Below, one piece after another: positions 119 through 43,966 of a stretch of DNA of 64,000 nucleotides. The stretch's first letter is position 1, and each line of letters opens with the position of its first letter. A program made the position numbers and the translations under genes. The notes below the pieces were generated by a model. The model did not search any database and was not told the DNA's origin. It saw only the letters and a program-made list of their open reading frames with translations. This stretch comes from Halorhabdus salina (GTDB lineage Archaea > Halobacteriota > Halobacteria > Halobacteriales > Haloarculaceae), in assembly GCF_013839425.1 (NCBI RefSeq), contig NZ_JACDNP010000003.1, positions 62,001-126,000 on the forward strand. The letters are read 5' to 3'.

Positions 119-1240
119 AGGCGGGAGTGGACGCCATGTCCATTTAAACATATTGTTCGTTCACAAATATTCTCTATAGATGATGGTATATTAATTCTGA
201 GTCAATCAGAATATATCTCTTCCGAGCCCGACATTGCCTACTGGCTGCCCAAATATGCATCTAAATTTAAGGTATATATGAATAATACGTCATATGATGG
301 TTTAGAGCCGGTTCACCGGACACTTTCCTGGAAAGATCTATCCCCCGGACGAGATCTCGGCCCAGTTTGTGTCCTCATGTCTTATTATGCTGTTCGAGGT
401 GTTCTATCGCTCGACTTGGCTGGCTCGATCTCGAATTTTCGCGAGCCAGTATCGAGATCCAATAGGTCGGTACGACGGACGCTGTGCGTCTCCTATTCGT
501 TGTCGTGGTGTCCCTACACCTCACTTATTCCACGCCGCTTTGTGTTCTTTCGACGCATTCGCCTTCTTCGTCCGTCGATGGTCCGCCCCATCATAATCAC
601 GTATGGTATATTTCATCGGTACGTTCAAGCATAGTATTCAGTTAGTTGCTTGGCGTGTTCAATGTTCTTTGTGACGCTAAAACGACACCCTTCGTGGAAT
701 TTACCCCTGATCTGATTGTCCGCGCTCTTTCGTATCTTATGCTATTCGCTCGTAAATCGCCAGTATCGGAGTAGTTATTTCGACTTTATCGGATTTTGTG
801 CGCGCTTGACGCGATCATTTTCGCATTTGTCTGTCTGAGTCGGATCGGTTTATTCCTGACTGATCAAACGATCTCCGCCCTCATAATTCTCTTTTCTGTC
901 ATATCGGGATAAATCCATATACATGGAGATGTAAGTAAACCTATCTTATGAGTTTTTGTGAATATAGTTCCTTTATTCATCTAACTGGGTGAAATAACTG
1001 GTCAATAAGCGTGCGAATCTACCAGTGAGGAATACCGCCGGCAGTCATGGGATATATGTGGCCCAAAAATCGACGATGCGATCAAGCCACTCGATTTTCC
1101 CGTCCTCTCCGTCGGACTCTCTGCCGTCTTCGTTTTCGGACATACTTTCAATTATATCCTCCAACTATATATATATTCGTCTGTATTGAATAGCTGCTTG
1201 TTACAAATCCCGTGAATGAAATTGCCGTATTCACGACGAC
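119..1240. other. AT-rich island with little coding signal
   Basis: About 1.1 kb that is visibly richer in A and T than the rest of the window, with runs such as TATATTAATTC and ATATATATATTC. Reading frames here lack the acidic composition and GC-rich third positions of the neighbouring genes. The only plausible gene is a 32-residue ORF at 1045-1143. The island could be foreign DNA or a long regulatory stretch upstream of the SMC-like gene. No known RNA gene was recognised. Confidence 0.5.
1045..1143 (-). CDS. Possible 32-residue acidic microprotein
   Basis: ATG at 1143 opens a 32-codon frame. The first 15 or so residues are very acidic (MSENEDGRESDGEDGK). A short amphipathic, aromatic tail with motif IEWLDRIVDFW follows and the frame ends in YIP. 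The composition is typical of haloarchaeal protein, unlike other frames in this AT-rich stretch. Upstream on the minus strand are an ATATATATATAG tract and GGAGG, the latter 14 nt before the ATG. No family was recognised. It may be a real small protein or a chance frame. Confidence 0.4.
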   Translation of the reverse strand: MSENEDGRESDGEDGKIEWLDRIVDFWATYIP

Positions 1241-1303
1241 TGTTATGCTCCTGTGATTGCTACAGGTAGCCAGCTTTGTGAGGGGCTCGGTATGGGCCTC
1301 GCT

Positions 1304-1573
1304 CTATTTGTCGAGGCACGGGTCGTGGCTTGGGTCGGAGAAGACATCCGTCCGATCTGCCCACCACTCGTTTTCGGGCGCCTTGTCGTATCTGGATGTC
1401 GTATACAGATCGGCGTCATCGCGGACACGGTGCGTGTATCCGGCACGTACCTGGACGAAATGGGTCAGTTGGCGTTTGACGATATCGAGTTTGCCGTCTA
1501 TCACGGTACCAGCGAGCCTCTCATCGACGCGCTCGTCGACACTGGCTCGTAGGACTGCCCTCTGTGGGCACAC
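1304..1573 (-). CDS. Unrecognised 89-residue protein or 5'-truncated remnant
   Basis: The frame has GC-rich third positions and a haloarchaea-like composition. It begins with a Cys-containing stretch, has a repeat-like VDERVDER near residue 12, and ends with EWWADRTDVF and DPSHDPCLDK. The sequence reads as a compact soluble domain, but I do not recognise it. The first ten residues look less coding-like, so the true start may differ or the gene may have lost its 5' part. It sits between the AT-rich island and the aminopeptidase gene, pointing away from the latter. Confidence 0.4.
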   Translation of the reverse strand: MCPQRAVLRASVDERVDERLAGTVIDGKLDIVKRQLTHFVQVRAGYTHRVRDDADLYTTSRYDKAPENEWWADRTDVFSDPSHDPCLDK

Positions 1574-1758
1574 CCACGAGCGAGCACGCGAAAAACGGAA
1601 CCGACGGGACGGTTCAACTCAATCCCAGCGGCGTGCCGATCCCGGCAGCGCCAAATCCGCCCGCGACGCTCGTCATCCAGACGACAACTGGCTCGACCGA
1701 CGCATTCGAACTCCGTTGGGGCCGAAGACACTAATTGTTCGCCCGCGTACCCCTTGCC

Positions 1759-2712
1759 ATGAGAGATACTGATTTTCGACGGCCAGCGGAAACGGCAATC
1801 CAGCAGTGTCTCGGTCTCGACACCGACGAATCCTGCTTGATTGTCACCGACGACCAGCGCCGTCCGATCGCCGAGGCGCTGTACGCGGTTGCCAGCGAGA
1901 CGACAGACGACGCGATGATCCTCCAGTACCCACCCGGTGAGCAGCACGGAGCTGAGCCCCCCGAAACGGTCGCCACGGCGATGGCGAGTGCCGACGTCGT
2001 TCTCGCCCCGACGACCAAGAGCCTGAGCCATACGCGGGCCCGGACCGAGGCCAACGAGGCTGGCGCCCGGGTAGCGACGCTGCCAGGGATCACTGACGAC
2101 GTGTTCACGACCGGACTGAACGTCGACTATGGCGAGATTCAGGATCACAGCGAAACCATGTACGATCGGGTCGCTGACGCCGCTGAGATTCGGGTCACGT
2201 CTGATCAGGGCACTGACATCAGGCTCCAGCCAGGTGATCGAGAGTGGCAACTCGACACGGGGATCGTCCACGACGCGGGGGTGATGTCGAACTTGCCAGC
2301 CGGCGAGGTGTTCATCAGCCCAGAGACTGTGACTGGAACCATCGTTGTGACGGGGACGATGGCACCACACGGACGACTCAGCGATGATCAGGCAGTTCAC
2401 ATCGAGGTCGAAGACGGTTACGTCACCGAGATCGACGACGAGACGATCCGCGGGCAGGTCGAGGAAGCTGCTGAGTCGGTCGGCCAGGACGCCTACAACC
2501 TCGCGGAGTTCGGCATCGGCACTAACGTCGGCGTCCGTCAACTGGTCGGGTCGGTACTACTCGACGAGAAGGCCGGTGGGACGGTCCACTTCGCGATCGG
2601 CGACGACGCGGGCTTTGGCGGCGATACCGAGGCACCGATCCACCTCGATGGCATCCTCCGGAACCCGACAGTCTCCGTCGACGGCGAGGAGATCACACTG
2701 CCGAGTCCCTGA
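1759..2712 (+). CDS. Aminopeptidase, peptidase family M29 (AmpS/PepS type)
   Basis: This 317-residue protein resembles the M29 metal-dependent aminopeptidases, which remove N-terminal residues from peptides in the cytoplasm. The likely metal ligands follow the family order: Glu183 in AGEVF, Glu250 in NLAEFGIGTN, His277 in VHFAIGDD, and His295/Asp297 in HLDGI. The N-terminal half (1-130) is the typical nucleotide-binding-like domain. The protein is somewhat shorter than bacterial members (about 370-410). The ATG at 1759 gives MRDTDF; an upstream GTG-type extension is poorly supported. It stands alone, 75 bp before a zinc-finger gene. Confidence 0.8.
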   Translation: MRDTDFRRPAETAIQQCLGLDTDESCLIVTDDQRRPIAEALYAVASETTDDAMILQYPPGEQHGAEPPETVATAMASADVVLAPTTKSLSHTRARTEANEAGARVATLPGITDDVFTTGLNVDYGEIQDHSETMYDRVADAAEIRVTSDQGTDIRLQPGDREWQLDTGIVHDAGVMSNLPAGEVFISPETVTGTIVVTGTMAPHGRLSDDQAVHIEVEDGYVTEIDDETIRGQVEEAAESVGQDAYNLAEFGIGTNVGVRQLVGSVLLDEKAGGTVHFAIGDDAGFGGDTEAPIHLDGILRNPTVSVDGEEITLPSP

Positions 2713-2786
2713 AGCCCACGCTGGACCCGCTTCGACCGCGTCGCTCCGACGGCGTTCTTTTACGTTCGCGTCGAGTACCGTCAGCC

Positions 2787-3434
2787 ATGACAGACTCAAC
2801 ACAGCGGGTGGGGCTTCCCTGTCCGGCCTGTTCGCCCGATCTGGAGACGGTCCATGACGTTCTCAACGACGGCGGGCAGGCAACGGTTCGGTGTACCGAG
2901 TGTGACCACGTGCATAAGACGACTCTCCCAGAGCCCAAGACGGTCCAACGCGATGTCGTCGTCTCACAGGATGGCGAGTCGTTCACGGGGACGGCCGAAC
3001 CGCCCGCCGATGAGACTCTGGCGGTGGGCGAGGAGTTCGTCTTAGAGACCGAGGAGGCGATCATGACCGTCCGAATCACCAGCCTCGAACTCGCCCAAGG
3101 ACGCGTCGAGGAGGCTCCCGTCGAGGATGTCCAGACGATCTGGACGCGCGCGGTGGGCAACGTCAGCGTCAACGCGACGATCCACCCCAAATCGGGGGCC
3201 CGTGACGAGACGCGAAGTGAGACGCTGCACGTCCCCGGCGACTACGAGTTCGTCGTCGGCGAGACCGACGAACTGGGTGACTTCACCTATACCATCGAGG
3301 GGATTCATCTCCGGGATGACGCTCGCGGCTACGATTACGAGAAACTCGATCACGACCGGGACAGCGCCCCCGCCAAGGACGTCAACCGGCTCTACCTCCG
3401 GGACGAGGAAAGCGACGCCTGGTCGGCGTGGTAA
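2787..3434 (+). CDS. HVO_0476-like zinc-finger protein
   Basis: The 215-residue protein starts with a four-Cys zinc ribbon (Cys12-Pro-Ala-Cys15 and Cys36-Thr-Glu-Cys39). An all-beta domain follows with EEFVLETEEAIMTVRITSLEL and a C-terminal half containing IWTRAVGNVSVNATIHP. Haloarchaea carry a conserved family of this type, often annotated only as an HVO_0476 family zinc finger, with no known reaction. It is 2 bp upstream of the PIMT gene in the same direction, so the two are probably co-transcribed. Confidence 0.7.
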   Translation: MTDSTQRVGLPCPACSPDLETVHDVLNDGGQATVRCTECDHVHKTTLPEPKTVQRDVVVSQDGESFTGTAEPPADETLAVGEEFVLETEEAIMTVRITSLELAQGRVEEAPVEDVQTIWTRAVGNVSVNATIHPKSGARDETRSETLHVPGDYEFVVGETDELGDFTYTIEGIHLRDDARGYDYEKLDHDRDSAPAKDVNRLYLRDEESDAWSAW

Positions 3435-3436
3435 GG

Positions 3437-4135
3437 ATGGCTCGCTGGTGGGGTACCGACCGGGACGATACCCCGGCCGCCGACGGTGGGGATGAGGACT
3501 GGCGACAGCGACGGCAAGCCCTGCTCGACGGCCTCCGTGAGCGCGATCGGGTGAGCGACCGCGCGCTGGACGCGCTTTCGGCCGTGCCGCGACACGAATT
3601 CGTGCCCCAGGCGACTCGTCGAGCGGCCTACGCCGACCGGCCGCTGTCGATCGGCGAGGGCCAGACCATCAGCGCGCCGCACATGGTCGCCATCATGGTC
3701 GATCGCCTCGACCTCGAACCCGGGCTGGACGTCCTTGAGATCGGGACCGGGTGTGGCTATCACGCGGCCGTCACCGCTGAAGTCGTCGGGGCCGAGCACG
3801 TCTACAGCGTCGAATATCACGCCACACTTGCCGAACAGGCCCGGCAGCGCCTGGCCGACCTGGGCTACGGCGACGTGTCGATCCGCGTCGGTGACGGTCA
3901 CGCAGGCTGGCCAGAACACGTACCGTACGACCGTGCCTATCTCACCTGTGCTGCCACGGAGGTCCCGGCGACTGTACTCGACCAACTCCGGCCCGGTGGC
4001 GTCTTTCTCGGGCCGATCGGCACGCGATCACAGCGACTGGTCCGGGTCAGCAAGCATCCGGACGGATCGACGGAGCGCGAGGACGTCGGTGGCGTCCGGT
4101 TCGTCCAGATGCAGGGTAGCGAGGAGTCGCCGTGA
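3437..4135 (+). CDS. pcm: Protein-L-isoaspartate O-methyltransferase
   Basis: The enzyme methylates L-isoaspartyl residues in aged proteins with S-adenosylmethionine, starting their repair. The 232-residue sequence has the family-specific GQTISAPHM (75-83) and SAM motif I VLEIGTGCGYHAAV (99-112). Further on are DGHAGWPEHVPYD and a strand with LRPGGVFLGPIG. The ATG at 3437 was preferred over GTG at 3428, which overlaps the upstream stop. A second, divergent methyltransferase of the same family follows after 62 bp. Confidence 0.88.
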   Translation: MARWWGTDRDDTPAADGGDEDWRQRRQALLDGLRERDRVSDRALDALSAVPRHEFVPQATRRAAYADRPLSIGEGQTISAPHMVAIMVDRLDLEPGLDVLEIGTGCGYHAAVTAEVVGAEHVYSVEYHATLAEQARQRLADLGYGDVSIRVGDGHAGWPEHVPYDRAYLTCAATEVPATVLDQLRPGGVFLGPIGTRSQRLVRVSKHPDGSTEREDVGGVRFVQMQGSEESP

Positions 4136-4197
4136 CTTTCGGGCACGGACCACCGGCGAACGCGGCGTTCATTAGGGTGGACGCGTAACCCGGCCCA

Positions 4198-4932
4198 ATG
4201 GATCCCGCGGTGTTGCGTGAGGATATGATCGATGGACTCCGCCACGAGAGCCGTGGTGTCCTCGACAGCGAGACTGTCGCGACGGCGATGAACGCCGTAC
4301 CGAGACATGCCTTTTTCGACGACGAGCGGGCGGCCTACGCCGACCGGGAGACCGAACGCGTGGGGACACGCGTCCTCGCACCCTCGACGGTCGCCAGGTT
4401 GTTCGAGGCCGCAGCCATAGAGCCGGACGATTCGGTGTTGCTCGTCGGTGCCGGCGTCGGCTACACGCCAGCGGTCGCGGCTGCGATCGTCGGTTCCCGC
4501 AACGTCCAGGCGGTCGACATCACCCGGCAGGTCGTCTACGAGGCGCGAGGGAACCTGGCGAACGCGGGCTATGCGTCGGTACTCGTCGACTGCCGGGATG
4601 GGGCCGACGGCCTTCCCGAGTACGCTCCGTACGATCGTATTCTCCTCGAAGCGGCGGCCGTCGAGCCGCCACAGACCCTCCTCGACCAACTTGCCCCCGA
4701 CGGGCGACTGGTCATGCCACTTGGGGCCCGTGAGCAGACGCTGACCGTCCTCGAAGATGGCGAGGTCGTCGAGGAGTGTGGGGCTGTGGCGTTCCGGCCG
4801 ATGCTCGTCGAGGGCGAACAGGTCGGTGCCATCGAGCGCAATCGGATGCACCGTGAGGATGAAGAACGCGCTCGTCAGGCGGCCCAGTCACGGACCGGCT
4901 GGGAGCAAGACTGGATCGACTGGGACGGGTAG
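4198..4932 (+). CDS. Divergent PIMT-like methyltransferase paralog
   Basis: At 244 residues this aligns along its length with the preceding PIMT: MNAVPRHAFF against LSAVPRHEFV, VLLVGAGVGYTPAV against motif I, and LLDQLAPDGRLVMPLG near the end. The family signature GQTIS is replaced by VGTRV (55-59). The acidic residue of motif I (VLEIG) is Leu (VLLVG). Substrate specificity has therefore probably changed or isoaspartate repair been lost, though SAM binding may persist. The C-terminal 35 residues are highly charged, with REDEERARQAAQ. A tandem duplication is the simplest origin. Confidence 0.72.
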   Translation: MDPAVLREDMIDGLRHESRGVLDSETVATAMNAVPRHAFFDDERAAYADRETERVGTRVLAPSTVARLFEAAAIEPDDSVLLVGAGVGYTPAVAAAIVGSRNVQAVDITRQVVYEARGNLANAGYASVLVDCRDGADGLPEYAPYDRILLEAAAVEPPQTLLDQLAPDGRLVMPLGAREQTLTVLEDGEVVEECGAVAFRPMLVEGEQVGAIERNRMHREDEERARQAAQSRTGWEQDWIDWDG

Positions 4933-5133
4933 TGAGTCCGTCGTGTGTGTCCGGGGCGGAGTTGTCGGCATCTTCCGACCGCCTCGACGCACGCCCTCGA
5001 TTGACGTGGATTTTTGTGGTGGCTGGGCGAACCCTCAAGTAATGGTGCGATCTATCGTTGGACTTCGACGTTACGCAGTCGTCGAGAGGGGCCATCGAGC
5101 GGAAACAGCTGCGATCGTTGCGGGGCGTGACTG

Positions 5134-11524: not shown

Positions 11525-11893
11525 CGCTATTGCATTCGCGTTGCGTGATTCAAATCCCGCTTTGCGTTTCGACGCTCACGAAGACGAGCACACGCTACGC
11601 GGTGCTCGTCGGAAATTGTTCGCAGTAGAAGACGCCCGAAGCGAGACTGAGCGAATCCGTCGGATTCGCGAAGGTCGGAAGACGATCGCGTCTTCCGGGA
11701 CTGAGCAAACGCGAGCGTTTTCGAAGGTCGAGAGACGCCGTGGCGTCTCTCAGGATTGTGAACCGGAGGAAGACGGTCGCTCACTCCGTTCGCGCTGCGT
11801 CTTCTAGAGTTCAAATCCCTCGCGGGGTATTTGCCGAACTCGAGTCGCTCGGCGACGAGACGCCTCGCTTGTGGGTTGAGTTCGGCAAAAGTA
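11525..11893. repeat. Palindrome array 3' of tRNA-Asp
   Basis: No gene is supported here; the stretch is built from palindromes. Stems: 11583-11591/11602-11610, 11651-11658/11662-11669, 11677-11684/11689-11696, 11707-11712/11715-11720, 11730-11739/11742-11751 (10 bp, 2-nt loop), 11769-11775/11798-11804 and 11831-11841/11878-11888 (11 bp). T-arm-like texts TTCAAATCC occur at about 11550 and 11810. The 36-nt segment 11769-11804 is found again, inverted and with one mismatch, at 43624-43659 beside tRNA-Ser. Read on the minus strand the array lies directly downstream of tRNA-Asp. Confidence 0.75.
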
Positions 11894-11966
11894 CGCCCGG
11901 AGCGGGATTTGAACCCGCGTCACGACCGTGACAGGGTCGTATGATGGGCCACTACACCATCCGGGC
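11894..11966 (-). tRNA. tRNA-Asp (anticodon GTC)
   Basis: The minus strand gives a 73-nt cloverleaf. The acceptor is GCCCGGA/TCCGGGC with discriminator G, the anticodon stem ACGAC/GTCGT encloses loop CCTGTCACG (anticodon GTC), and the T-arm is GCGGG-TTCAAAT-CCCGC. CCA is not encoded. An AT-rich box, CTTAATATTAG on the minus strand (about 11993-12003), lies about 27-37 bp upstream and probably is the TATA element. Confidence 0.95.
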
Positions 11967-34646: not shown

Positions 34647-34765
34647 ACGGCCTGTCATACGCGTTGACAGCCAGCCTACTTCAATCTTCGTGACTGTCTG
34701 ACGCACGTCAGCGGTTGTGCTGGCGACCGGCCGACGCCGCCCGATTTCTCGGTTGGAATGATAAC

Positions 34766-34774
34766 CGTTAAGTC
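34766..34774 (+). promoter_or_regulatory. TATA-like box of tRNA-Tyr
   Basis: CGTTAAGTC lies 28-36 bp before the mature 5' end of tRNA-Tyr, with BRE-like ATGATAACC just upstream. The spacing fits transcription starting a few bases before the tRNA. Confidence 0.5.
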
Positions 34775-34801
34775 TCCCACCGGGCCTACGTTGGGGTGCA
34801 A

Positions 34802-34875
34802 CCGCCCTTAGCTCAGACTGGTAGAGCAGTCGACTGTAGATCGACTTGCCCCCCGTTCAAATCGGGGAGGGCGGA
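34802..34875 (+). tRNA. tRNA-Tyr (anticodon GTA)
   Basis: A 74-nt cloverleaf. The acceptor is CCGCCCT/AGGGCGG with discriminator A, the D-arm has AGCTCAGACTGGTAGAGCA, the anticodon stem TCGA/TCGA encloses CTGTAGA (anticodon GTA), and the T-arm is CCCCGTTCAAATCGGGG. CCA is not encoded. Its last 21 nt plus the first 6 flanking bases recur exactly 141 bp downstream. Confidence 0.95.
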
Positions 34876-35158
34876 CTCGTTCTGACGCCGACTGCGACCG
34901 AAGGGAGCCAGCGGCGTCTGTCGTGTAACCCACGACCCGATTTCGTGCTCGGAAGTCGCAGCCGACGAACGTAGTGAGTCGGACCGTCTTCCGGTGTTCA
35001 AATCGGGGAGGGCGGACTCGTTTTGTCGACGTAACACGTCGACTGTCGAGTATATCACTCCCCGATTTGAGCCTGGAAGTCGCAGCGGCCGAGCGTAGCG
35101 AGGCCGACCGTCTTCATCTGTTCAAATCGGGGAAAGAAAACGACGCAAGTAACGAGAG
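34876..35158. repeat. Palindrome array with a duplicated tRNA-Tyr 3' end
   Basis: The 27-nt text covering the tRNA-Tyr T-loop to 3' flank (34855-34881) is repeated exactly at 34996-35022, and a partial copy (GTTCAAATCGGGG) lies at 35120-35132. Between them are stems 34884-34890/34912-34918, 34920-34925/34931-34936 and 35025-35032/35036-35043. Two large nested hairpins span 34936-35008 and 35060-35132. Both carry the text GGAAGTCGCAGC...GACCGTCTTC, and the second has an 11-bp outer stem CCCCGATTTGA/TCAAATCGGGG. No gene is supported. Confidence 0.8.
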
Positions 35159-36088
35159 TTACCGGCAGTACGCGTCCAGCGGGTTCTCGTGGACGATCGT
35201 CTCGATGGCTTCGTCGTCAACGTCGGATGCCCGCAGTTTCGGCAGGAACTCATCGACGATATAGGTGTAGGGGTCGGCCCCGCCGCCGTCGGGTTGACTG
35301 GGGTCGTAGTAGCCCCGGTCCTGACTCAACAGGACGTTGTCAGTGTACCCGCGTTCAGTCATGTACTCGACGAGGTCGATGTACGTCTGGTCGTCCTGGT
35401 CGTGGCCGCCGATCCAGTCGTACTCGACGAATGCGCCGCGTTCGGCCGCGCGCTCGTGGTAGTCGAGTTCTTCCTCGGCGCGAGCGTGGATCCAGATGAA
35501 CCGCGAGGCGTCGTAGCCTTCTTCCTCGATAATGTCCATCTGCTGGTGGGCAACATTGCCATGCAGCGTGTGGCTGCCGATGACCGCGCCAGTCTCGTCG
35601 CCGGCCCGCGCGGCCGCCCGCAGGATCTTCTCTTCGTCGGCCGAGAGTCCCTCGGGATCCTCGTCGTCGGTGCTCACCTTGATCCAAGCCGCCTGGACGC
35701 CGGTGTCCTCGACCTCGTCGGTCAGCTCGTCGAGCATCCACTCGGTGAGTTCCTCGACGCTCATCTCCCGGGCCCACTGGGGGATGCTTGGCTCTTGATA
35801 GATCCCGGTCGGCACGACCACAGGGAAGTCCGTTGCCTCAGAGACCGCGAGGTCGATGTCGACGCGGCGTCCGACGCCTTCGGGCGTACACTCGACGAGG
35901 GCGTCGATATCCGCTTCCTTTGCGCGCTCGATCTCCGGGCCGATGAGGTCGATCACTGCCTCGGGCTCGGTGTCTTTCCAGTTTTCGTCTTCCATCGGGC
36001 CGAGGTCGGCGAATATGTGTTCGTGGGGGAGCAGCAGATCGATCTCGTCTCGATCGAACGGCCCCTGCGTCGTGCCGAGTTTTGCCAT
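35159..36088 (-). CDS. Phosphotriesterase-family metal-dependent hydrolase
   Basis: This 309-residue amidohydrolase-fold protein has the metal ligands of the PTE/PHP family: His-x-His in LLPHEHIFADLG (about 22), a candidate carboxylated Lys in AAWIKVSTDDED, His in IGSHTLHGN, His in WIHARAEEE and Asp in LLSQDRGYY. Family members include lactonases and esterases, and many have unknown substrates. ATG at 36088 (MAKLGTTQGP) was chosen over a start 39 bp upstream that adds KTYFPTAFEG. The stop is 27 bp from the last tRNA-Tyr hairpin. Confidence 0.82.
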   Translation of the reverse strand: MAKLGTTQGPFDRDEIDLLLPHEHIFADLGPMEDENWKDTEPEAVIDLIGPEIERAKEADIDALVECTPEGVGRRVDIDLAVSEATDFPVVVPTGIYQEPSIPQWAREMSVEELTEWMLDELTDEVEDTGVQAAWIKVSTDDEDPEGLSADEEKILRAAARAGDETGAVIGSHTLHGNVAHQQMDIIEEEGYDASRFIWIHARAEEELDYHERAAERGAFVEYDWIGGHDQDDQTYIDLVEYMTERGYTDNVLLSQDRGYYDPSQPDGGGADPYTYIVDEFLPKLRASDVDDEAIETIVHENPLDAYCR

Positions 36089-36293
36089 GATAGATCCCTC
36101 GAATGCAGTTGGAAAGTAAGTTTTCATCAGTTCTTTGCGCCAAGCGTGGGTTCGGGGTGTACGGCATCACGCTCCGCCCAGATTGCCACCGGGTCTTAAA
36201 GCCAAGAGAATCGCAAGACTGCAGTCGAATCATCAGCGTGAACAATCGCAGTCTTTTTTGCGTGTCTCGTTCCTCAGATCAGGCGTGGTAACG

Positions 36294-36458
36294 ATGGGTG
36301 TCTTCGACCGCGGCAGATTCAGCTCGGGGTCCGACGAGGCTGAGACGCTTCCCTATCTCTGTCTATCCTGTGAAACGCCACTGCCCGTCCAGTATCACTC
36401 CTGCCCGGAGTGTGGGAGTTACGACGTGCGGCGCGCAAAGTGGGTCGACGATCACTAA
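36294..36458 (+). CDS. Small zinc-ribbon protein (54 residues)
   Basis: MGVFDRGRFSSGSDEAETLP is followed by the ribbon CLSCETPLPVQYHSCPECGSYDVRRAKW. The four Cys are two CxxC pairs 13 residues apart. The protein resembles the product of 11357-11524 in size and design (short N-terminal tail, ribbon, short C-terminus). These minimal ribbons may mediate protein contacts; no role is known. ATG at 36294 gives the compact form. Confidence 0.65.
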   Translation: MGVFDRGRFSSGSDEAETLPYLCLSCETPLPVQYHSCPECGSYDVRRAKWVDDH

Positions 36459-36656
36459 CGTCGATCCGGTTCGGAACCCCCTCAGGGATCTGTCTCGCGC
36501 TCTCAGTCGATCGCCGTCGGCGGATCGACCGTCGAGAGCGGGCGCTACAAGTCCGGATAGTACGTCCATGTGGGCGTCCACCATCGCTGGTGAGCCACGA
36601 CCTGCAGCCGACTGGTGGGTCGCCAGATTCTTGGTCTCGCTGTCGGAACGACCGGC

Positions 36657-37577
36657 ATGCGATTCCCGAGCGAGATTGTCGTCGATCGTTTCTTGCCGAC
36701 GGCCCGGGCCATGCTCGCCAGCGAACTGTCCGAGCACGGACTCACCCAACAGGAGATCGCCGATCACCTCGGCGTGACCCAGGCCGCCGTGAGCAAGTAC
36801 GTCAGCGGCGACGTCGAGATCGAATCTCGATTCAGTGAGGATCCGCGGCTACAGTCGACCATCGAGGATGTCGCCGCCGGCTTCGCTGACGGGTCGATGG
36901 ATGCCTACGACGCGCTCGGTGCGTTGCTGGACGTGATTCGGGCCTTCGAGGATCGGGGGCCGATCTGTGAAATTCACGAGGAAGCGGTCCCGGCGCTTGC
37001 GGGACTGGGCTGTGATCTCTGTGTGCGGGGCCACGACGAAGCGGTCGCCGACGAGCGGGCGGTCCTCTCGGCGGTTCGGAACGCTACGAGACTACTGACC
37101 GAGGAGACAGCGATGGTCGCCTACGTCCCAAACGTCGGCACGAACGTGGGCATGGCGCTGCCCGACGCTGAGGGCGAGCGCGATGTCGCGGCGGTGCCGG
37201 GTCGAGTCCACGCGATGCGTGGCCGGATCAACGTGCCTGCTAATCCGGAGTTTGGCGGCTCTCAGCACGTCGCCCGGACGATTCTCGCTGCGATGGCTGT
37301 CGATCCCTCCAGGCGCGGGGCGTTGAACCTCGCGACCGACGAGTCACTGCTCACGGCCGCGCGTGACCGGGGGATCGAGCCACTCCAGTTCGACGCCGGC
37401 TACGAGAACCGTCGGGAGCGCCTCGAAGCCGCGTTCCGCGACCGCGGCGCGGTGCCAAATGTCGTCTACCACGAGGGTGCGTTCGGGATCGAGCCGATCA
37501 CCTACGTACTCGGCGAGGACGCCCTGAAAGTGACACAGCTGGCGGTCGAACTGGTGGATGCTGCACAGCAGGCGTAG
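36657..37577 (+). CDS. thiR: HTH-ThiN protein, ThiR-like thiamine regulator
   Basis: The 306-residue protein has an N-terminal HTH (LTQQEIADHLGVTQAAVSKYVSG, about 29-51), a middle region with a CxxC-type element (GLGCDLCVRGH), and a C-terminal ThiN domain (MVAYVPNVGTNVGMALPDAEG through DRGAVPNVVYHEGAFGIEPITYVLGEDA). ThiN fused to ThiD makes thiamine phosphate. Fused to HTH it is known in haloarchaea as a regulator of thiamine biosynthesis genes. No thiamine gene is adjacent, so it would act at a distance. Confidence 0.78.
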   Translation: MRFPSEIVVDRFLPTARAMLASELSEHGLTQQEIADHLGVTQAAVSKYVSGDVEIESRFSEDPRLQSTIEDVAAGFADGSMDAYDALGALLDVIRAFEDRGPICEIHEEAVPALAGLGCDLCVRGHDEAVADERAVLSAVRNATRLLTEETAMVAYVPNVGTNVGMALPDAEGERDVAAVPGRVHAMRGRINVPANPEFGGSQHVARTILAAMAVDPSRRGALNLATDESLLTAARDRGIEPLQFDAGYENRRERLEAAFRDRGAVPNVVYHEGAFGIEPITYVLGEDALKVTQLAVELVDAAQQA

Positions 37578-37640
37578 GCGGCGGCAAGGAAACCTGTCGG
37601 TGGCCTTCCTTGACCAGCGTTCCCTGATCGTGACGGTCGA

Positions 37641-37877
37641 TCAGCGGTCGATGTGGACCGGGATCCACCATACGCGAGAGCGCCCACCGACTTTCTTGCT
37701 CGTGATATCCGTCGACTCTTCGAGTTCGTGCAGTTTATTCAGCGCCGTCCGGCGAGAGCACCCAAGCGCCTCGGCCACCTCACTTGCGGTCAGTGGCTCG
37801 GCGTAATCGTCTCGGTCTTTGAAAACTTCTGTCACGTCTTCGACTGCGTACTCCGTATCGCGGCCTGATCCACTCAT
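37641..37877 (-). CDS. Small winged-helix transcriptional regulator
   Basis: The 78-residue protein has a helix-turn-helix LTASEVAEALGCSRRTALNKLHELEE (29-54), followed by a wing strand TSKKVGGRSRVWWIPVH. An acidic N-terminal tail precedes it. It resembles many small haloarchaeal HTH proteins that sit alone. The target is unknown. It is convergent with thiR and divergent from the pseudogene block. Confidence 0.72.
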   Translation of the reverse strand: MSGSGRDTEYAVEDVTEVFKDRDDYAEPLTASEVAEALGCSRRTALNKLHELEESTDITSKKVGGRSRVWWIPVHIDR

Positions 37878-38042
37878 ATGGACCGATAGGCCACCCGCCC
37901 ACTTAATTTCTCACGTAGGCACCGAACCTCTGGACAGACGCTTGTCGGTTTTAGTCGACCGATTCACGGGGCCGACTCTCCCCCGGCGGCGTCGATGCGC
38001 TTCTAAGACGCTGCTCGCAACGGCGGTCTGCGCGAGGCGGGC

Positions 38043-38800
38043 ATGACAGACAGCCAGGCGCGAATCAGATCGACGGAGGCGTGGTCCTGGTCAAAGCGAC
38101 CAGAGCGGCGTCGCCCGGAACGGGTGTCACATTCCTGGTGTCAGGCAGGGGTGGCCACGGAGCGCCGACAGCGTCGACCTTCTCGATGCCCCTCCAGCAG
38201 AGCGCCTCGAAACACGTCGGGCGCGTCTTGACCGACATCGGTGGGGCCGGCCTGGAGATTCACACGATTCGGGAGTAGCGTGCGGGCGACCCCCCTCTCA
38301 CGTATCGACTGGCAGCGAGACGAGTTACCCGCGATCGCTGTCAAGCGCGCCCAGCAGGGGCGGTCCTAGTGGCGATCACCGCCCGGATCCACGGGCGACC
38401 TCTCTTCGCGACCGGAGAGTTCGCGCTCCTGCTGTGACATCGCTTGCGCTGGTCTCTTTCGCCCTCACTGTCGGGCTGGTTGGAGCCATCCCTGCGCTCC
38501 TGGGAACGGCAGTCGGCTCGCGGCGAATACGTGGCGTGGGGGGTCTTCGTACTGAACAGCGGGACGTTCCGCGCCGGCAGCGAAGGCCTTCCAGTTCCGT
38601 TTCTCTCGGCCGCGATGGTCGGGACTGTGTTGGGCTGGGGCGTCGGCGAGCAGTCGATCAGTGTCGCCGCACAGGTCGGCTGGACGGGCGATCTCGACCG
38701 ACCGATCTTCGTCCACGCGGCTATCAGTCGTCTCGGTGCAATGAGTTCGCAATCTCCGGCTCTCCGTTATCATCTCCTCGCTTCGTCTTTGATTGGTCGG
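38043..38800 (+). pseudogene. Decayed DUF58-like and membrane-protein gene pair
   Basis: At about 38190-38277 one frame reads SKHVGRVLTDIGGAGLEIHTIRE then TAG. This matches SSHVGRVLTDVGGSGLEFHSVRE in the intact DUF58 gene at 39813. The following RAGDP-PLSRIDW is in a shifted frame. From 38434 a hydrophobic segment SLALVSFALTVGLVGAIPALL continues, after another frameshift near 38520, as WGVFVLNSGTF and MVGTVLGWGVGEQSISVAAQVG. That resembles the small membrane protein that follows DUF58. The block is a degenerate second copy of the downstream cluster with an internal deletion. Confidence 0.7.
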
Positions 38801-38877
38801 TGACGTGTTGACGGTGACTTCGACACTTTTTCTACGGTACCGGCGGACGGTCAGAGAGTGTTACCGGGTGTCAATCG

Positions 38878-39816
38878 GTGAAACGAAACCGCCAGCGAAT
38901 ACTCGTCGGTGTGACAGTTCTTTTGGCTGTGTTTGCGATCGTTATCGTCGCGGCGGCTGTTGTTCCGACCCAGACTGAGGAGGGCCAACCTGGTAATGGG
39001 ACGGGCGGCGTGTCCCTCAACCAATCATCCCAGGAACCCCGCGAGTTCGACATTACGGTCGATATACCGCCACTGGTTCGTACCATCGCCGTGGCGCTGT
39101 TTCTCGGGTTCACCGTCGTTGGGTTGCTAATCCGGATACAGACTCTCACGCTCAGGGGGGGCATGATATCGCTTTTCGCGGGTAGTGTCATTTTCGTCAT
39201 GATCCAACTCATCGATCTCTCGATGAGCTTTCCCGGGTCGGAACCGCAGACCCACCCCGTCACGAATGGCACCGGTTCAGGTGGCTCGGGGTCCGTGAAT
39301 CCCGCCGTTCCAGGCACTGACATTCCGATTGTGGTACTCGGGGGGATCGCGGTCGTTCTCGTCGGAGTTGTGGCACTGTTCGTCCTCTCGGGCGGGCGAT
39401 CGGATCCATCCAAAGACGAAGACTTAGACGACCAGGAGTCGATCGATGAATTGAACGCTGTTGGATCAGCGGCCGGCCGGGCGGCGTCGCAATTGGCGGC
39501 CGGTGTCGATTCGATGAATGCCATCTACCGCGCCTGGGCCGAGATGACCGACGCCCTCGAAGTGTCGAATCCGGACACGACGACACCAGGTGAGTTCGCC
39601 GAGGCAGCAATCCAGGCTGGCATGGACCCCGACGACGTGCAGGAACTCACTCGACTCTTCGAGGCTGTCCGATACGGTGATGAACCGCCCTTGCCCGATC
39701 GGATCGATCGCGCCGAGGGAGCGCTTCGACGGATCGAAGCAGCGTACGCGACGGCGGAGGAGACAGCTCAGCAGGCGGATTCCGACGGGACTGACACACA
39801 GGAGAATACACGATGA
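38878..39816 (+). CDS. DUF4129-containing membrane protein
   Basis: A 312-residue protein that starts with GTG. Membrane segments lie near 9-29, 73-91, 99-115 and 155-180, with a Gly/Ser/Asn-rich external loop between the last two. The cytoplasmic C-terminus (195-285) contains VDSMNAIYRAWAEMTDALEV and TPGEFAEAAIQAGMDPDDVQELTRLFEAVRYG, the DUF4129 pattern also found behind transglutaminase-like proteins. It overlaps the DUF58 gene by 4 bp (ATGA). Such proteins cluster with DUF58 and MoxR genes. Confidence 0.78.
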   Translation: MKRNRQRILVGVTVLLAVFAIVIVAAAVVPTQTEEGQPGNGTGGVSLNQSSQEPREFDITVDIPPLVRTIAVALFLGFTVVGLLIRIQTLTLRGGMISLFAGSVIFVMIQLIDLSMSFPGSEPQTHPVTNGTGSGGSGSVNPAVPGTDIPIVVLGGIAVVLVGVVALFVLSGGRSDPSKDEDLDDQESIDELNAVGSAAGRAASQLAAGVDSMNAIYRAWAEMTDALEVSNPDTTTPGEFAEAAIQAGMDPDDVQELTRLFEAVRYGDEPPLPDRIDRAEGALRRIEAAYATAEETAQQADSDGTDTQENTR

Positions 39817-41795
39817 CCGGGCAGCGTGAAATGCTATCCGACGCCGCTGAGGAGTCAGCTTTCGAGGAGGATGTCGAAACCGAACAGCGAATCGAGCCGT
39901 TCATCTCTCCGGTGATCGGTGCGATCGGGAGTCTTCTCGTGGGCGTTGGATTCGTCGTCGTCTGGAAGCCGTCGCTCGTCGGGACTTCGACGGAGTATCT
40001 GGCCGTTTACGCGATCTCGGTGGTCGCGATCATCGCGGGTATCTGGTACAGCTATCGACGGACCTTCGCCTCGGTGTCGGAATCGACGCCCCCGACTGTC
40101 GAAGCCCGCTCGACGACGTCCGTCCCTGGGTCGACGTTCGATCGACTCCTTCGTGGGCCATTTCCGTCGCAGGGCGATCGGATCAAGGCACGCCGGCGCG
40201 TCTCGAAACGCCTCCGGCAAGCGACGATCGACGTTCTCGATTCGACCAGTACCGATCGTGATGCGAGCTCGATCGAGGCGGCCCTGTCGGCGGGAACCTG
40301 GACAGACGACCCGATGGCAGGGGACTTTTTCGCCGAGGAGGCAACCGAGCGTACCTTGCGTGACCGCATCGAGAACGTCCGTCTCGGGCGTCCCAACCTC
40401 TTCGTCCTCAGCGTTGAGCGAGTCGTCGGTGAGCTGGCGGATCGATACCTGCCTGATCGAGCGACAGACTGGTACAACTCCCCCGAGACGTCTGCGAACA
40501 CGCGGCGGCGGTCGACGTTTGGCACCGTCCGTTCGACGGGTCGCTGGCGCGGGTTGGGTGCTATCGCGTTGCTCGCGATCGGGCTTGGAGCCGGCCTTGG
40601 TAAACCGGGATTGCTGCTGGTTGCTGGGCCGTTGTTGCTCGTCGTCGGCTACGCGGCGATGGACGTCGAGCCCCCGCAGTCGATCACCATCGAACGGACG
40701 GTCGAACCGACCGACCCCGACCCCGGCGAACGCGTCCAAGTGCGCGTTGACGTTCACAACGATTCCGGGCGGTGGGTCCCAGACCTCCGGATCGTCGATG
40801 GCGTCCCGGCCGGGATGACCGTCGCTGATGGCTCACCACGACACGGAACCGTCCTGCGGCCGGGAGCCTCGACCTGGTTCGAGTACTCGGTACAGGCTGA
40901 GCGGGGCACCCACACTTTCGAGTCTGCGTATACGATCACGCGGAACCTCTCGGGGTCGATCGAACGCACGTTTCGGACGGCGACCGAGGGCGATCGAGCC
41001 ATCACCTATCGGCTCCAGCCGGATTTCGAGGCGACTTTTCCCCTCCGCCAACAGGCTTCGAGTCACGTCGGCCGCGTCCTGACGGATGTCGGTGGGAGTG
41101 GGTTGGAGTTCCATTCCGTCCGGGAGTATCGCTCGGGTGATCCACTCTCGCGCATCGACTGGAATCGGGCCGCCCAGGGACAGGGACTTGCGACGCTGCA
41201 GTTCCGCGAGGAGCGCTCGGCGACGGTCGTGTTGCTGCTCGATACGCGTGCAGCCGCGTACGTTGCTCCTGATGAGGAAGCGCCGTCAGCTGTCGATCGG
41301 ACCGTCCAGGCGGCCGCGGACGTGTTTCGGGCCTTGCTGAATTCCGATGACCGGGTTGGGATGGCTGCCCTGTCTCCGCGGGGGTGTTGGCTCCCGCCAG
41401 GGGCCGGGCACGTTCACTGGGCGCGGGCGGAGGCGTTGTTTGCCAAGGATCCAGCATTCTCGACGCAGCCACCAACCCAGGCGTTTCACCCGCATGTCCG
41501 GCTGCCGAAACTCCGCAAGCGTCTCCCCTCTGACGCCCAGATCGTCATGTTTTCGCCCCTCTGTGACGACGAGAGTTCGTCGATCGCTCGCCAGTTACAG
41601 GCCCACGGCTATCCGATGACAGTGATCAGCCCGGATCCGACGAGCGACGGGACGGTCGGCCAGACTGTTGGACGCATCGAGCGCAAGCTCCGGCTTTCGA
41701 CGCTCCGGAAGGCAGATGCCCGCGTCGTCGACTGGCAGCCAGCGGAACGACTGGCGCTGGCGTTCGACCGTGCCCAACGGCGGTGGTCACGGTGA
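39813..41795 (+). CDS. DUF58 family protein (MoxR-associated, vWA-like)
   Basis: 660 residues. Two membrane helices lie near 30-75 and another hydrophobic pair near 245-285, followed by an extracellular-type beta domain (TVEPTDPDPGERVQVRVDVHNDS). The DUF58 signature VREYRSGDPLSRIDWNRAAQ is near 430-450, with a vWA-like strand TVVLLLDTRAA after it. DUF58 proteins work with MoxR AAA+ ATPases in complex assembly or maturation. The start overlaps the DUF4129 gene and the stop overlaps the next gene by 4 bp. Confidence 0.85.
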   Translation: MTGQREMLSDAAEESAFEEDVETEQRIEPFISPVIGAIGSLLVGVGFVVVWKPSLVGTSTEYLAVYAISVVAIIAGIWYSYRRTFASVSESTPPTVEARSTTSVPGSTFDRLLRGPFPSQGDRIKARRRVSKRLRQATIDVLDSTSTDRDASSIEAALSAGTWTDDPMAGDFFAEEATERTLRDRIENVRLGRPNLFVLSVERVVGELADRYLPDRATDWYNSPETSANTRRRSTFGTVRSTGRWRGLGAIALLAIGLGAGLGKPGLLLVAGPLLLVVGYAAMDVEPPQSITIERTVEPTDPDPGERVQVRVDVHNDSGRWVPDLRIVDGVPAGMTVADGSPRHGTVLRPGASTWFEYSVQAERGTHTFESAYTITRNLSGSIERTFRTATEGDRAITYRLQPDFEATFPLRQQASSHVGRVLTDVGGSGLEFHSVREYRSGDPLSRIDWNRAAQGQGLATLQFREERSATVVLLLDTRAAAYVAPDEEAPSAVDRTVQAAADVFRALLNSDDRVGMAALSPRGCWLPPGAGHVHWARAEALFAKDPAFSTQPPTQAFHPHVRLPKLRKRLPSDAQIVMFSPLCDDESSSIARQLQAHGYPMTVISPDPTSDGTVGQTVGRIERKLRLSTLRKADARVVDWQPAERLALAFDRAQRRWSR

Positions 41796-42289
41796 GCCGA
41801 GCCGCTCGGCCCTCGCGGTTCGGTGTGGCGATGACACTCGTTCCAGTTGTGGTCTGTCTGGTATCGGTAGCGGGCAACGGAGCGGGCCTCCTCTTTGCCA
41901 TCGCTGGGGCGCTCGCGGCACTCGTGGGGGTCGAACTCGGGCGTCGACTCGTGCTCGGTGTCGGTGTGGCCGGACTCTTCGCTTCGGTCCTGATCGTCGG
42001 CGTTGCGGGATACGACCCCGCGTTCGTTGCCGTCGCCGGAATTGCGGCACTGTTGACATGGGATATCGCCGATCACGCGATCAGCATTGCCAGACAGTTG
42101 GGTACCGGTCCCGACCGCCGTCGCCTCCTGCTGGCACACTCTGCCGGGAGTGTGATCGTGGCTGTCGGCGCGCTTGCAGTCGTCCTCGTCGGATTCTCCG
42201 TGACGCCGCGTGACCTACCGTTATTGGCGGTCGTCTTGTTGCTCGCCGGTTTGCTCGCACTTGTCCCGGCACTCAGGATCGGACGATAG
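41792..42289 (+). CDS. Small membrane protein of the DUF58 cluster
   Basis: The 165-residue product starts at GTG 41792, which overlaps the DUF58 stop (GTGA). Five or so hydrophobic segments cover most of its length: VAMTLVPVVVCLVSV, LLFAIAGALAALVGV, LVLGVGVAGLFASVLIVG, a central WDIADHAISIARQLG loop, and two C-terminal helices. No motif suggests a reaction. Remnants of a similar protein are visible at 38434-38800. Translational coupling indicates a subunit of the same membrane assembly. Confidence 0.65.
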   Translation: MSRAARPSRFGVAMTLVPVVVCLVSVAGNGAGLLFAIAGALAALVGVELGRRLVLGVGVAGLFASVLIVGVAGYDPAFVAVAGIAALLTWDIADHAISIARQLGTGPDRRRLLLAHSAGSVIVAVGALAVVLVGFSVTPRDLPLLAVVLLLAGLLALVPALRIGR

Positions 42290-42341
42290 GCTGATGTGGT
42301 CACATCTGGCCGGATACTGACGCTGCTCTCTTGGACTGTTC

Positions 42342-43289
42342 TCAGACTGTCGGGACGGGGATGTCTTCGAGGACGCGATCGACCACGGCGGATTTGGCGA
42401 TGTCGTCGACGCGCGCGTCGGGCGTCAATACGATCCGATGTGCGAGTGCTGGCTGGGCGACGCGTTTGACGTCGTCCGGCGTGACGTACTCGCGGCCGAC
42501 CAGCGCTGCCCGCGCCCGGCTCGTCTCTAGCAGTCGCTGACTCCCACGTGGGGAGACGCCGACCTCGACGTGGCGGTGCTTTCGGGTCGCTCGCGTGATC
42601 TGAGCCATGTAGGTGAGCAGGTCTTCCTCGACGCGGACGGACTCGGGAGCGGTCCGGAGCGCCTGTACCTGGTCAGGGTCAAGGATCGTCTCGACGGACG
42701 GGCTCTGTTGCTCGCGACCGAGACGACGCCGCAGGAGTTCGATCTCGCCGCCTTCCTCGGGGTAGCCCATCGTCGTCTTGATCGCGAATCGATCGACCTG
42801 TGCTTCAGGCAACTCGAAAGTCCCCTCCATCTCGACAGGGTTCTGGGTCGCAATGACGAAGAATGGCTCCGGCAACTCGTGGGTTTCGCCGTCGACGGTG
42901 ACTTGCCCTTCCTCCATGGCTTCCAGTAGCGCGCTCTGGGTTTTGGGCGGGGCCCGATTGATTTCGTCAGCGAGGACGATGTGGGCAAAGATCGGGCCTT
43001 CGCTGAATTCGAAGGTGCGGTCGCGCTCGTTGTAGACGTGGGTTCCCGTGACGTCGGCTGGAAGCAGGTCCGGTGTGAACTGGATGCGTGAGAAGGAGAC
43101 GCCCAGCGTTTCGGCGACCATTCTGGCAGTCAGGGTCTTTCCCGTTCCAGGAACGTCTTCGAGCAGGACGTGTCCTCGTCCGAGAACGCCAAACAGGACC
43201 GTTTCGAGAAACTCGCGGTCGGTGATCACTGCCGATTCGATCTCGTCGAGAAGTCTGTTGCAGGTATCGCTCGCCTCGGAAACGTCCAT
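42342..43289 (-). CDS. MoxR-type AAA+ ATPase
   Basis: The 315-residue protein has Walker A LLEDVPGTGKTLTARM (42-57), Walker B IVLADEINRAPPKTQSALLEAMEE (104-127), sensor 1 ATQNPVEMEGTFELPEAQVDRF, and the C-terminal lid with VSPRGSQRLLETSRARA. MoxR ATPases remodel or insert cofactors into client proteins with vWA/DUF58 partners. Here it is convergent with the DUF4129-DUF58-membrane trio rather than in their operon, with a 52-bp gap. ATG at 43289 is chosen. Confidence 0.9.
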   Translation of the reverse strand: MDVSEASDTCNRLLDEIESAVITDREFLETVLFGVLGRGHVLLEDVPGTGKTLTARMVAETLGVSFSRIQFTPDLLPADVTGTHVYNERDRTFEFSEGPIFAHIVLADEINRAPPKTQSALLEAMEEGQVTVDGETHELPEPFFVIATQNPVEMEGTFELPEAQVDRFAIKTTMGYPEEGGEIELLRRRLGREQQSPSVETILDPDQVQALRTAPESVRVEEDLLTYMAQITRATRKHRHVEVGVSPRGSQRLLETSRARAALVGREYVTPDDVKRVAQPALAHRIVLTPDARVDDIAKSAVVDRVLEDIPVPTV

Positions 43290-43347
43290 GCCCCAGAGCT
43301 TTGTTGGGTGAAACTTAGTGATACCGGGGCCGGACTGGGATCGAAAC

Positions 43348-43356
43348 GGATAAACA
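43348..43356 (+). promoter_or_regulatory. TATA-like box of tRNA-Ser
   Basis: GGATAAACA lies 26-34 bp before the mature tRNA-Ser end and is preceded by TCGAAAC, a fair BRE. It sits in the gap that also serves the divergent MoxR gene. Confidence 0.45.
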
Positions 43357-43381
43357 CGGCAACGGTGTACCCGGAATCGTT

Positions 43382-43466
43382 GCCGAGGTAGCCTAGCCTG
43401 GCCAAGGCGCCTGCCTCGAGAGCAGGTGTCCTCACGGACTCGAGAGTTCAAATCTCTCCCTCGGCG
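43382..43466 (+). tRNA. tRNA-Ser (anticodon CGA)
   Basis: An 85-nt class II tRNA. The acceptor is GCCGAGG/CCTCGGC with discriminator G, the anticodon arm CCTGC-CTCGAGA-GCAGG gives anticodon CGA, the long variable arm is TGTCCTCACGGACT, and the T-arm is GAGAGTTCAAATCTCTC. CCA is not encoded. Two further copies of its T-loop to 3' end lie downstream at 43548 and 43665. Confidence 0.95.
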
Positions 43467-43966
43467 TTTCTAACTCCGAGCAAACGCGAGGAGTCTGTAC
43501 GCTAAAGAGATTTGAATCAGGGAGTGGAGCGAAGCGGAACGACCGTGGTTCAAATCGCTCCCTCGGCGCTTCTCCTTCCGAACGGACGTGAGGAAGGTGT
43601 GCAACGCGAGAGTTTGAACCCTGGAAGACGCAGCGCGAACGTAGTGAGCGACCGTCTTCGTCCGGTTCAAATCACTCCCTCGGCGCTTCTCAATGGTACG
43701 TCAAGCTTCGAGCCGTACGTGCATCCGTTATTGATGGAACGATAGCACTGACTCCTGACAACAAAGGGTGTGCACGATATAGAGGTTCCATGTAGCACGG
43801 CAGCTTCATTTTTATACCAGAGACAGTGGACCAGCCACTCAGTAAGCCTGCAACGTAAATTGCCCCTCGATGAGTGTGCTGATATGATATGTTCGCCGGG
43901 CGTAGATTATGCTGACCGACGATTTCGGACTCTCCTGTCACGCTCCGGTAGTGCCGCTCAGTCTGC
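43467..43966. repeat. Palindrome array with repeated tRNA-Ser 3' ends, then plain intergenic DNA
   Basis: GTTCAAATC-N-CTCCCTCGGCG occurs at 43446 (in the tRNA), 43548 and 43665. Each extra copy closes a hairpin whose outer arms are GATTTGAA/TTCAAATC (43509-43516/43549-43556) or TTTGAACC/GGTTCAAA (43613-43620/43664-43671). The second hairpin contains stem GAAGACG/CGTCTTC (43624-43630/43653-43659) and the 36-nt core shared with the tRNA-Asp locus. From 43691 to 43966 I see no gene, RNA or repeat. Confidence 0.78.

Follow-up and report, generated by a model that had tools for sequence, protein, structure and literature searches.

Hairpin units downstream of haloarchaeal tRNA genes form arrays and carry arms fitted to the local tRNA

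Results

Hairpin units at the tRNA-Ser(CGA) locus

The window analyzed here is a 64,000-nt stretch of a Halorhabdus salina genome of 2.86 Mb in 25 contigs. Downstream of its tRNA-Ser(CGA) gene lie two short units, each of which ends in a copy of the 3' end of that tRNA (Table 1). A sequence-only reading of this DNA had reported that GTTCAAATC-N-CTCCCTCGGCG occurs at 43446, 43548 and 43665, and we found the motif at all three positions with 0 mismatches, compared with a mean of 0.01 in 100 shuffles. The copy at 43446 is the 3' end of the tRNA-Ser(CGA) gene itself, and the other two are extra copies. Both of the palindromes described in the same reading are present, with GAGATTTGAA at 43508-43517 facing TTCAAATC from 43549, and GTTTGAACC facing GGTTCAAA at approximately 43612-43620 and 43664-43671.

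Read 5' to 3' after nucleotide 73, the mature 3' end of the tRNA, each unit consists of a first hairpin (HP1) with the recurring motif stem-GA-NN-loop-NN-GA-stem, an inverted T-arm, a hairpin core, and a repeat of tRNA nucleotides 54-73. The copied stretch is 20 nt in length, from T54 to N73, and its left edge is the first position of the 7-nt T-loop. The palindrome that spans from the inverted arm to the tail is referred to here as HP2. Units are typically approximately 100-130 nt in length; the two at tRNA-Ser(CGA) measure 102 and 117 nt with the tail copy included, and neither holds an integrase gene of its own, for which both are too short. The five-base stem of HP1 in unit 1 pairs in a DNA fold, and the core of unit 1 is 91% like one tRNA-Met(CAT) core of the same genome. 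HP1, the common cores, and the genome-wide and class-wide spread of the units go beyond the content of the sequence-only reading. That reading had also claimed the same design at tRNA-Tyr, where we indeed found it, and tRNA-Asp carries units of that design as well. An Rfam search of positions 34700-43800 of the window returned only two tRNAs, together with two matches far below their gathering scores.

Table 1. Positions of tRNA genes and hairpin-unit features in the window.
Feature	Position	Strand	Basis
tRNA-Ser(CGA), array anchor	43381..43467	+	ARAGORN; Rfam RF00005 43382-43466
Tail (nt 54-73) of tRNA-Ser(CGA) gene	43447-43466	+	
Unit 1 at tRNA-Ser(CGA): HP1, inverted T-arm, core and tail copy	43467..43568	+	sequence, unit segmentation
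HP1 of unit 1: ACTCC-GA-GCAAACGC-GA-GGAGT, tandem G.A motif	43473..43495	+	sequence, motif statistics
Inverted T-arm of unit 1: GAGATTTGAA	43508..43517	+	sequence, arm matching
Core of unit 1: class with CAGGGAGTGG...GACCGTGG	43518..43548	+	unit segmentation
Tail copy 1: tRNA nt 54-73, one mismatch	43549..43568	+	sequence
Unit 2 at tRNA-Ser(CGA): HP1, inverted T-arm, core and tail copy	43569..43685	+	R1 hit 43605-43679, segmentation
HP1 of unit 2: CCTTCC-GA-ACGGACGT-GA-GGAAGG	43574..43597	+	sequence, fold
Inverted T-arm of unit 2: GAGAGTTTGAA	43608..43618	+	sequence, arm matching
Core of unit 2: CCCTGGAAGACGCAGC...GACCGTCTTCGTCCGG	43619..43665	+	sequence, segmentation
Tail copy 2: tRNA nt 54-73, one mismatch	43666..43685	+	sequence
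tRNA-Tyr(GTA), anchor of second array	34802..34876	+	ARAGORN
tRNA-Tyr unit 1, tail copy 34997-35016	34876..35016	+	sequence, R1 hit, segmentation
tRNA-Tyr unit 2, degenerate tail copy 35121-35140	35017..35140	+	sequence, R1 hit, segmentation
tRNA-Asp(GTC), anchor of third array	11894..11966	-	ARAGORN
HP2 at tRNA-Asp, tail decayed	11749..11823	-	R1 hit C19:73749-73823:-, sequence

Units are linked to tRNAs across the genome

We built a covariance model, R1, from 18 HP2 sequences and searched the genome with it at a cut-off of E <= 0.01. When three opposite-strand duplicates are removed from the 41 hits listed, 38 distinct places remain. These lie downstream of a same-strand tRNA within 300 nt in 28 cases, within 1.5 kb in 32 cases, and within 6 kb in 34 cases. 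The 32 hits within 1.5 kb of a tRNA compare with 0.4 expected, and the antisense count is 0. A tail copy, defined by no more than 5 mismatches in 20 nt, is present within 1.5 kb at 24 of the 41 tRNAs of this genome. The sequence-only reading had proposed a comparison of tRNA flanks with shuffled controls, and its outcome is clear: in three congeneric genomes, inverted and direct 9-mer pairs of a tRNA's own tail occur in 65 of 124 downstream flanks and in 0 of 124 upstream flanks, and block-shuffled flanks give a mean of 0.03. Likewise, exact 10-mer pairs with the own tail number 32, compared with a mean of 4.9 (maximum of 9) after tails are swapped among tRNAs.

Four R1 hits in this genome are orphans that lie far from a tRNA. 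Two of them, which have Ala tails and adjoin an integrase gene, lie 28 kb from tRNA-Ala(GGC) and thus were probably displaced by an integrated element. A third, on C8, stands behind a truncated tRNA-Gly-like sequence. The fourth (C1:524876) adjoins an integrase gene and an unrecognized G+C-rich stretch that begins with GGGCCGGG and has no Rfam match; it lies in an orphan array (C1:523.4-525.1 kb; L077, 8419-10150) with the tail TTCGAATTCGCGCCGGCCCA and no recognizable tRNA.

Arms and tails are local and cores recur

The sequence-only reading held that the copies at a locus are those of the tRNA at that locus. This was borne out, and the inverted arm was found to be fitted to that tRNA as well, by the flank control described above and by two further comparisons. 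In 128 units, the inverted arm matches its own tRNA at a mean of 3.30 of 5 T-stem positions, compared with 2.52 (SD of 0.07, maximum of 2.75) under permutation. At tRNAs with unusual T-loops, 20 of 22 arms follow their own tRNA, one has the common loop and one is a tie. When the match of the arm to the upstream tail is set against that to the downstream tail, as a means of telling a tail-carrying cassette from a target duplication, the score is 5 to 10 with 8 ties, such that upstream tails are matched no better than downstream tails. The T-stem of tRNA-Arg(TCG) in this genome (C21:46609) contains a T.T mismatch, and two congeners have G.T. Mismatches such as T.T hinted at imported tails, an idea that we dropped because the 5' strand usually co-varies.

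The same reading had set such local copies against the spread of one fixed sequence, and here it needs correction: the cores recur at different tRNAs, and it is the arms and tails on either side of them that alone are local. Of 150 core pairs with at least 85% identity, 126 join different tRNAs. The core similarity is 0.680 within the same array compared with 0.677 between different arrays. A 101-nt core common to tRNA-Lys(TTT) and tRNA-Val(TAC) of this genome is 90% alike, compared with 56% for HP1. Since short cores have a strong consensus, much of their likeness may reflect constraint, and the long core is the stronger evidence. It argues for real movement, in which a related core family spreads between tRNAs.

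Unlike the cores, HP1 is somewhat local. HP1 sequences are at least 80% alike in 9 of 63 unit-unit pairs within an array and in 11 of 141 unit-to-distal-flank pairs, compared with 74 of 2914 pairs between arrays. That HP1 is sometimes common within an array suggests that some duplications exceed 20 nt. The array at tRNA-Ser(TGA) of congener G050 prompted us to consider a CRISPR-like layout, with tail, HP1 and arm as the repeat and the core as the spacer. This layout is not general, and we rejected it because so few unit pairs have HP1 in common.

The hairpin covaries and one strand is favored

The hairpin of the units covaries. Both sides have changed in 8 of 18 pairs of the R1 alignment overall and in 5 of 6 inner-helix pairs. 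In the same alignment, 94.2% of cells are paired, compared with 84.6% in shuffles and 18.6-53.6% in slid structures; these figures rest on an alignment selected by hand within one genome, which also supplied the structure, so the slid control is flattering and the compensations in the inner helix carry more weight. The tandem G.A motif is found on the sense strand of 114 of 128 units, compared with 10 of 128 on the other strand and 9.5 in shuffles, so one strand seems to be read, either as RNA or as folded DNA. Folding was carried out on 123 of the 128 units, with five left out due to a length of more than 220 nt or the presence of N. With RNA parameters, the sense strand is favored in 90 of 123 units by a mean of 3.6 kcal/mol; with DNA parameters, its advantage is limited to 83 of 123.

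Units occur in nearly all Halobacteria genomes

At E <= 1e-4, 377 of 391 Halobacteria genomes have a match to the hairpin, as do 82 of 86 genera. Among the best 30 loci of this class search, one per genome and one of them from the present genome, all 30 have a same-strand tRNA just upstream, and the identity of these anchoring tRNAs varies. In each of five named genomes (Halomicroarcula sp. SYNS111, Halorientalis persicus, Haloferacaceae archaeon XH8, Natronomonas aquatica and a Halobacteriales MAG), the locus likewise has a tRNA just upstream on its strand. The 14 Halobacteria genomes without a match (G014, G021, G054, G129, G313, G316, G217, G382 and six others) are useful negatives for tracing the enzyme; several of them also had few first-look candidates. 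In a phylum-wide draw, 41 of 246 genomes matched, and all 41 are classed as own, same family or same order. Of the non-matching genomes, 20 are listed, with 2 belonging to the same order and 18 to other parts of the phylum; another 185 make up the remainder. Among the genomes searched, the units are restricted to Halobacteria.

Searches for the pattern gave 0 exact matches in viral contigs and no match in phages. A plasmid search returned one record that covers 29% of the query, at query positions 2-92, which are almost only tRNA. A search for the source of new units found its best match outside G050 in congener G079 (98% over 98 nt), with next-best matches of 75-84% over longer stretches, and a distant donor was not seen.

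Arrays differ between congeners at the tRNA-proximal end

We compared all tRNA flanks of this genome with those of congeners G050 and G089 and observed that orthologous tRNAs differ freely in unit content. The tRNA-Pro(TGG) site is empty in G050, where the tRNA is followed directly by TACCACC..., and filled in G089, where one unit and a tail copy precede the flank seen in G050. Over 124 nt, the flanks of this pair have 98% identity, and the breakpoints lie at 1 and 128. For tRNAs with a common unit but differing arrays, counted per tRNA from pairs with a common unit and a different unit number or order, whatever one array has in addition is found on the tRNA side of the common unit in 9 of 10 (Arg(CCG), Arg(GCG), Asn, Glu(CTC), Gly(GCC), Leu(TAG), Met, Ser(TGA) and Thr(GGT)). 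At Val(TAC), the difference looks like an internal one, and at Met there is a distal difference as well. These tRNA-proximal changes, the tRNA-Pro(TGG) pair and the same-strand linkage uphold the earlier proposal of a mechanism that acts at the tRNA 3' end. The three genomes fit gain and loss of units alike, and under the reading favored below units would have been gained. Among the matches listed, tRNA-Gly of G346 is followed by a run of seven units of one type, approximately 105-111 nt apart (L162, approximately 1479-2365), which is apparently a recent amplification. Two identical units are found in L073.

Ordinary integrative elements use the same tRNAs

Ten genes of this genome score above the Pfam cut-off for PF00589 recombinases. 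None of them lies in the window (C19), and none is tied to hairpin units. Two recombinase genes stand beside displaced arrays, where they adjoin a 13-nt acceptor repeat or an ambiguous context and not the 20-nt junction; against the integron integrase model NF040815, which has a cut-off of 220, these two score 50.6 and 35.7. At L076 (8800-10464, minus strand; C20), a Phage_integrase-family gene adjoins the older array that is separated from tRNA-Ala(GGC) at C20:79677. Close to the end of this gene is CCCGCCGAGTCCA, which equals the final 13 nt of tRNA-Ala(GGC), and the old array follows. An integrative element in tRNA-Ala(GGC) has probably pushed this older hairpin array 28 kb away.

The 13-nt copy represents a second kind of tail copy, which comprises the acceptor part (nucleotides 61-73) and follows another small hairpin, such as CGTTCGACAGTCGAACGAGCG or GTTCACC..GGTGAACT. 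It is seen at L075 (C21:46400-62000) within 392-5050 and also in the flanks L027, L031 and L023. Given the 13-nt copy of this kind and the 20-nt copy of the hairpin units, two processes seem to use the same site. At tRNA-Arg(TCG) in L075, genes for a NUDIX protein and an alpha/beta-hydrolase lie between HP2 sites. We considered integron-like gene cassettes here and rejected them in favor of ordinary integrative elements, because both gene intervals end in the 13-nt acceptor copy after another small hairpin and because this copy also adjoins the L076 integrase.

Discussion

The hairpin arrays are a real and strong feature of haloarchaeal genomes: a structured, strand-specific, covarying non-coding element at tRNA 3' ends in almost the whole archaeal class. 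Their closest structural likeness may be sought among several known systems. The attC sites of integrons are imperfect hairpins made up of outer box, unpaired spacer, paired inner box and variable loop; their junction is G^TT, and their R box has the consensus GTTRRRY. The units have the same hairpin layout, a G^TT-type junction, and presence or absence at the anchor end, the last seen at 9 of 10 comparable tRNAs, for which gain and loss alike would fit. However, the outer box of most units is GTTCAAA rather than GTTRRRY, the units are without genes, no integron integrase lies beside the arrays, and the anchors are tRNA genes of many identities. As in CRISPR arrays, repeat-like tails alternate with variable inserts and change occurs at one end. 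The tails are near-identical within an array; the inserts fall in structured families rather than being foreign spacers, and the repeat is the tRNA's own 3' end.

Archaeal elements that target tRNAs, including those of the SNJ2, pTN3, pT26-2 and SSV integrases, insert at a tRNA and copy part of it, as described in the relevant sections of a review (PMC8371274), and in the hairpin units, too, the insert is followed by a copied tRNA 3' end. In contrast, those elements span kilobases of genes, an integrase among them, whereas the units encode nothing, and the haloarchaeal SNJ2 att site given in those sections is 13-14 nt and free of stem-loops (PMC8371274), compared with the 20-nt copy of the units. 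The MITEs, PATEs and SMRs of Haloquadratum are short, non-coding, palindromic mobile repeats, as are the units in form, and the type A SMRs among them are approximately 110 bp, target other mobile elements, and have a mobilization termed enigmatic in the portion of the source drawn on here (PMC3119063). The ends described there are family-specific (PMC3119063), whereas the arms of the units match the host tRNA, whose 3' end is the target. Fixed terminal inverted repeats, a trait of MITEs and SMRs, are thus not what we found in the 22 arms at unusual T-loops, 20 of which match their own tRNA. The array behavior and the target-fitted arms set our presumably mobile units, with their presumed enzyme, apart from the small non-autonomous mobile hairpins compared here.

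Partial tRNAs have been noted in haloarchaea before. Haloferax gibbonsii has 11, several of them directly beside the full copy (PMC7921747), and in the sections of the sources that treat them, haloarchaeal partial tRNAs are either linked with integrative elements or with att sites of viruses or given no explanation, with no hairpin units, arrays or common cores in those accounts (PMC7921747, PMC3119063, PMC7230728). Hairpin units of the present kind are described nowhere in the literature searched, which includes the relevant portions of PMC3119063, PMC7714728, PMC7230728, PMC7921747 and PMC8371274. Such units would account for many of the partial tRNA copies seen in haloarchaeal genomes.

Three features point to site-specific insertion at the T-loop, namely the 20-nt copy, the edge at G53^T54 and the tRNA-proximal changes. 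We therefore favor, at a probability of roughly 45%, the reading that the units are mobile non-coding hairpins that are inserted there by a recombinase acting in trans. A unit consisting of HP1, inverted T-arm and core would enter at the G53^T54 edge, the tRNA 3' end would stay intact, and a 20-nt copy of nucleotides 54-73 would remain behind the unit. Later units would enter between the tRNA and older units, such that arrays would change from the tRNA end. The inverted arm might be kept matched to the local tRNA through fold-back copying at insertion; alternatively, unmatched palindromes might be corrected through template switching during replication. The active form would probably be the folded tRNA-sense strand. 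The enzyme that cuts would most likely be a tyrosine recombinase, since the junction lies at the edge of a 7-nt T-loop flanked by an inverted repeat, the T-stem, and the overlap of tyrosine recombinases is usually 7 nt. Cuts at the edges of tRNA loops are given as shown or likely in the corresponding part of a review of archaeal recombinases (PMC8371274).

A broader claim is that haloarchaea possess, throughout the class, a system dedicated to the insertion of hairpins, folded as single strands, at tRNA T-loops, always adjoining the tRNA. The polar arrays would then record the history of insertion, and the system would be an archaeal counterpart of integron and CRISPR acquisition in which the repeat is the tRNA's own 3' end. 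We regard this claim as doubtful.

It is unlikely that the units are instead inserted by a different type of integrase (Cas1-like or HUH-type), which would make staggered cuts at nucleotides 53/54 and after nucleotide 73, duplicate 20 bp of target around a tail-less HP1-arm-core, and leave an arm copied from the target. The duplication in the clean tRNA-Pro(TGG) pair copies nucleotides 54-73 and ends at the mature 3' end, and extra units are tRNA-proximal much as new CRISPR spacers are leader-proximal. Furthermore, since cores are found at several tRNAs with local tails and arms, a cassette that carries its own tail is strained, and target-site duplication with fold-back copying of the arm accounts for recurring cores with local tails. 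On the other hand, some duplications seem longer than 20 nt, and the present data fit a 20-bp target duplication and a tail-carrying unit alike.

The units might instead be old remnants of integrated elements with no dedicated mobility now, amplified and shuffled by homologous recombination or gene conversion between tail copies and with arms perfected by quasi-palindrome template switching. Such a history would be in keeping with the near-identical tandem units (the seven-hit run at tRNA-Gly of G346 and the two identical units in L073), with the HP1 sequences common within some arrays, and with integrative elements that use the same tRNAs and leave 13-nt copies. It is made improbable by the extra tRNA-proximal units, which are mostly unlike their neighbors in a way that simple unequal crossing-over would not give, by the unit present at a tRNA-Pro(TGG) site that is otherwise conserved and is empty in a relative, and by a covarying, strand-specific structure in 377 of 391 genomes, which is unlike decaying remnants. 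More improbable still is that HP1 and HP2 form a transcribed tRNA trailer kept for a function in processing, termination or tRNA-linked small RNAs, since the constant tRNA-sense orientation and the RNA folding preference for that strand (90 of 123 units) are countered by the 17 of 41 tRNAs of this genome without a tail copy within 1.5 kb, the differences at orthologous tRNAs between congeneric species, the lack of any Rfam match other than tRNAs in the part of the window searched, and a copied tail that it leaves unexplained.

If mobility of the hairpins is confirmed, several questions become open to testing: why mobile DNA is drawn to tRNA 3' ends, how a palindrome comes to match its target in sequence, and whether folded single-strand sites are used by archaea as they are by integrons. 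The arrays could also double as strain markers.
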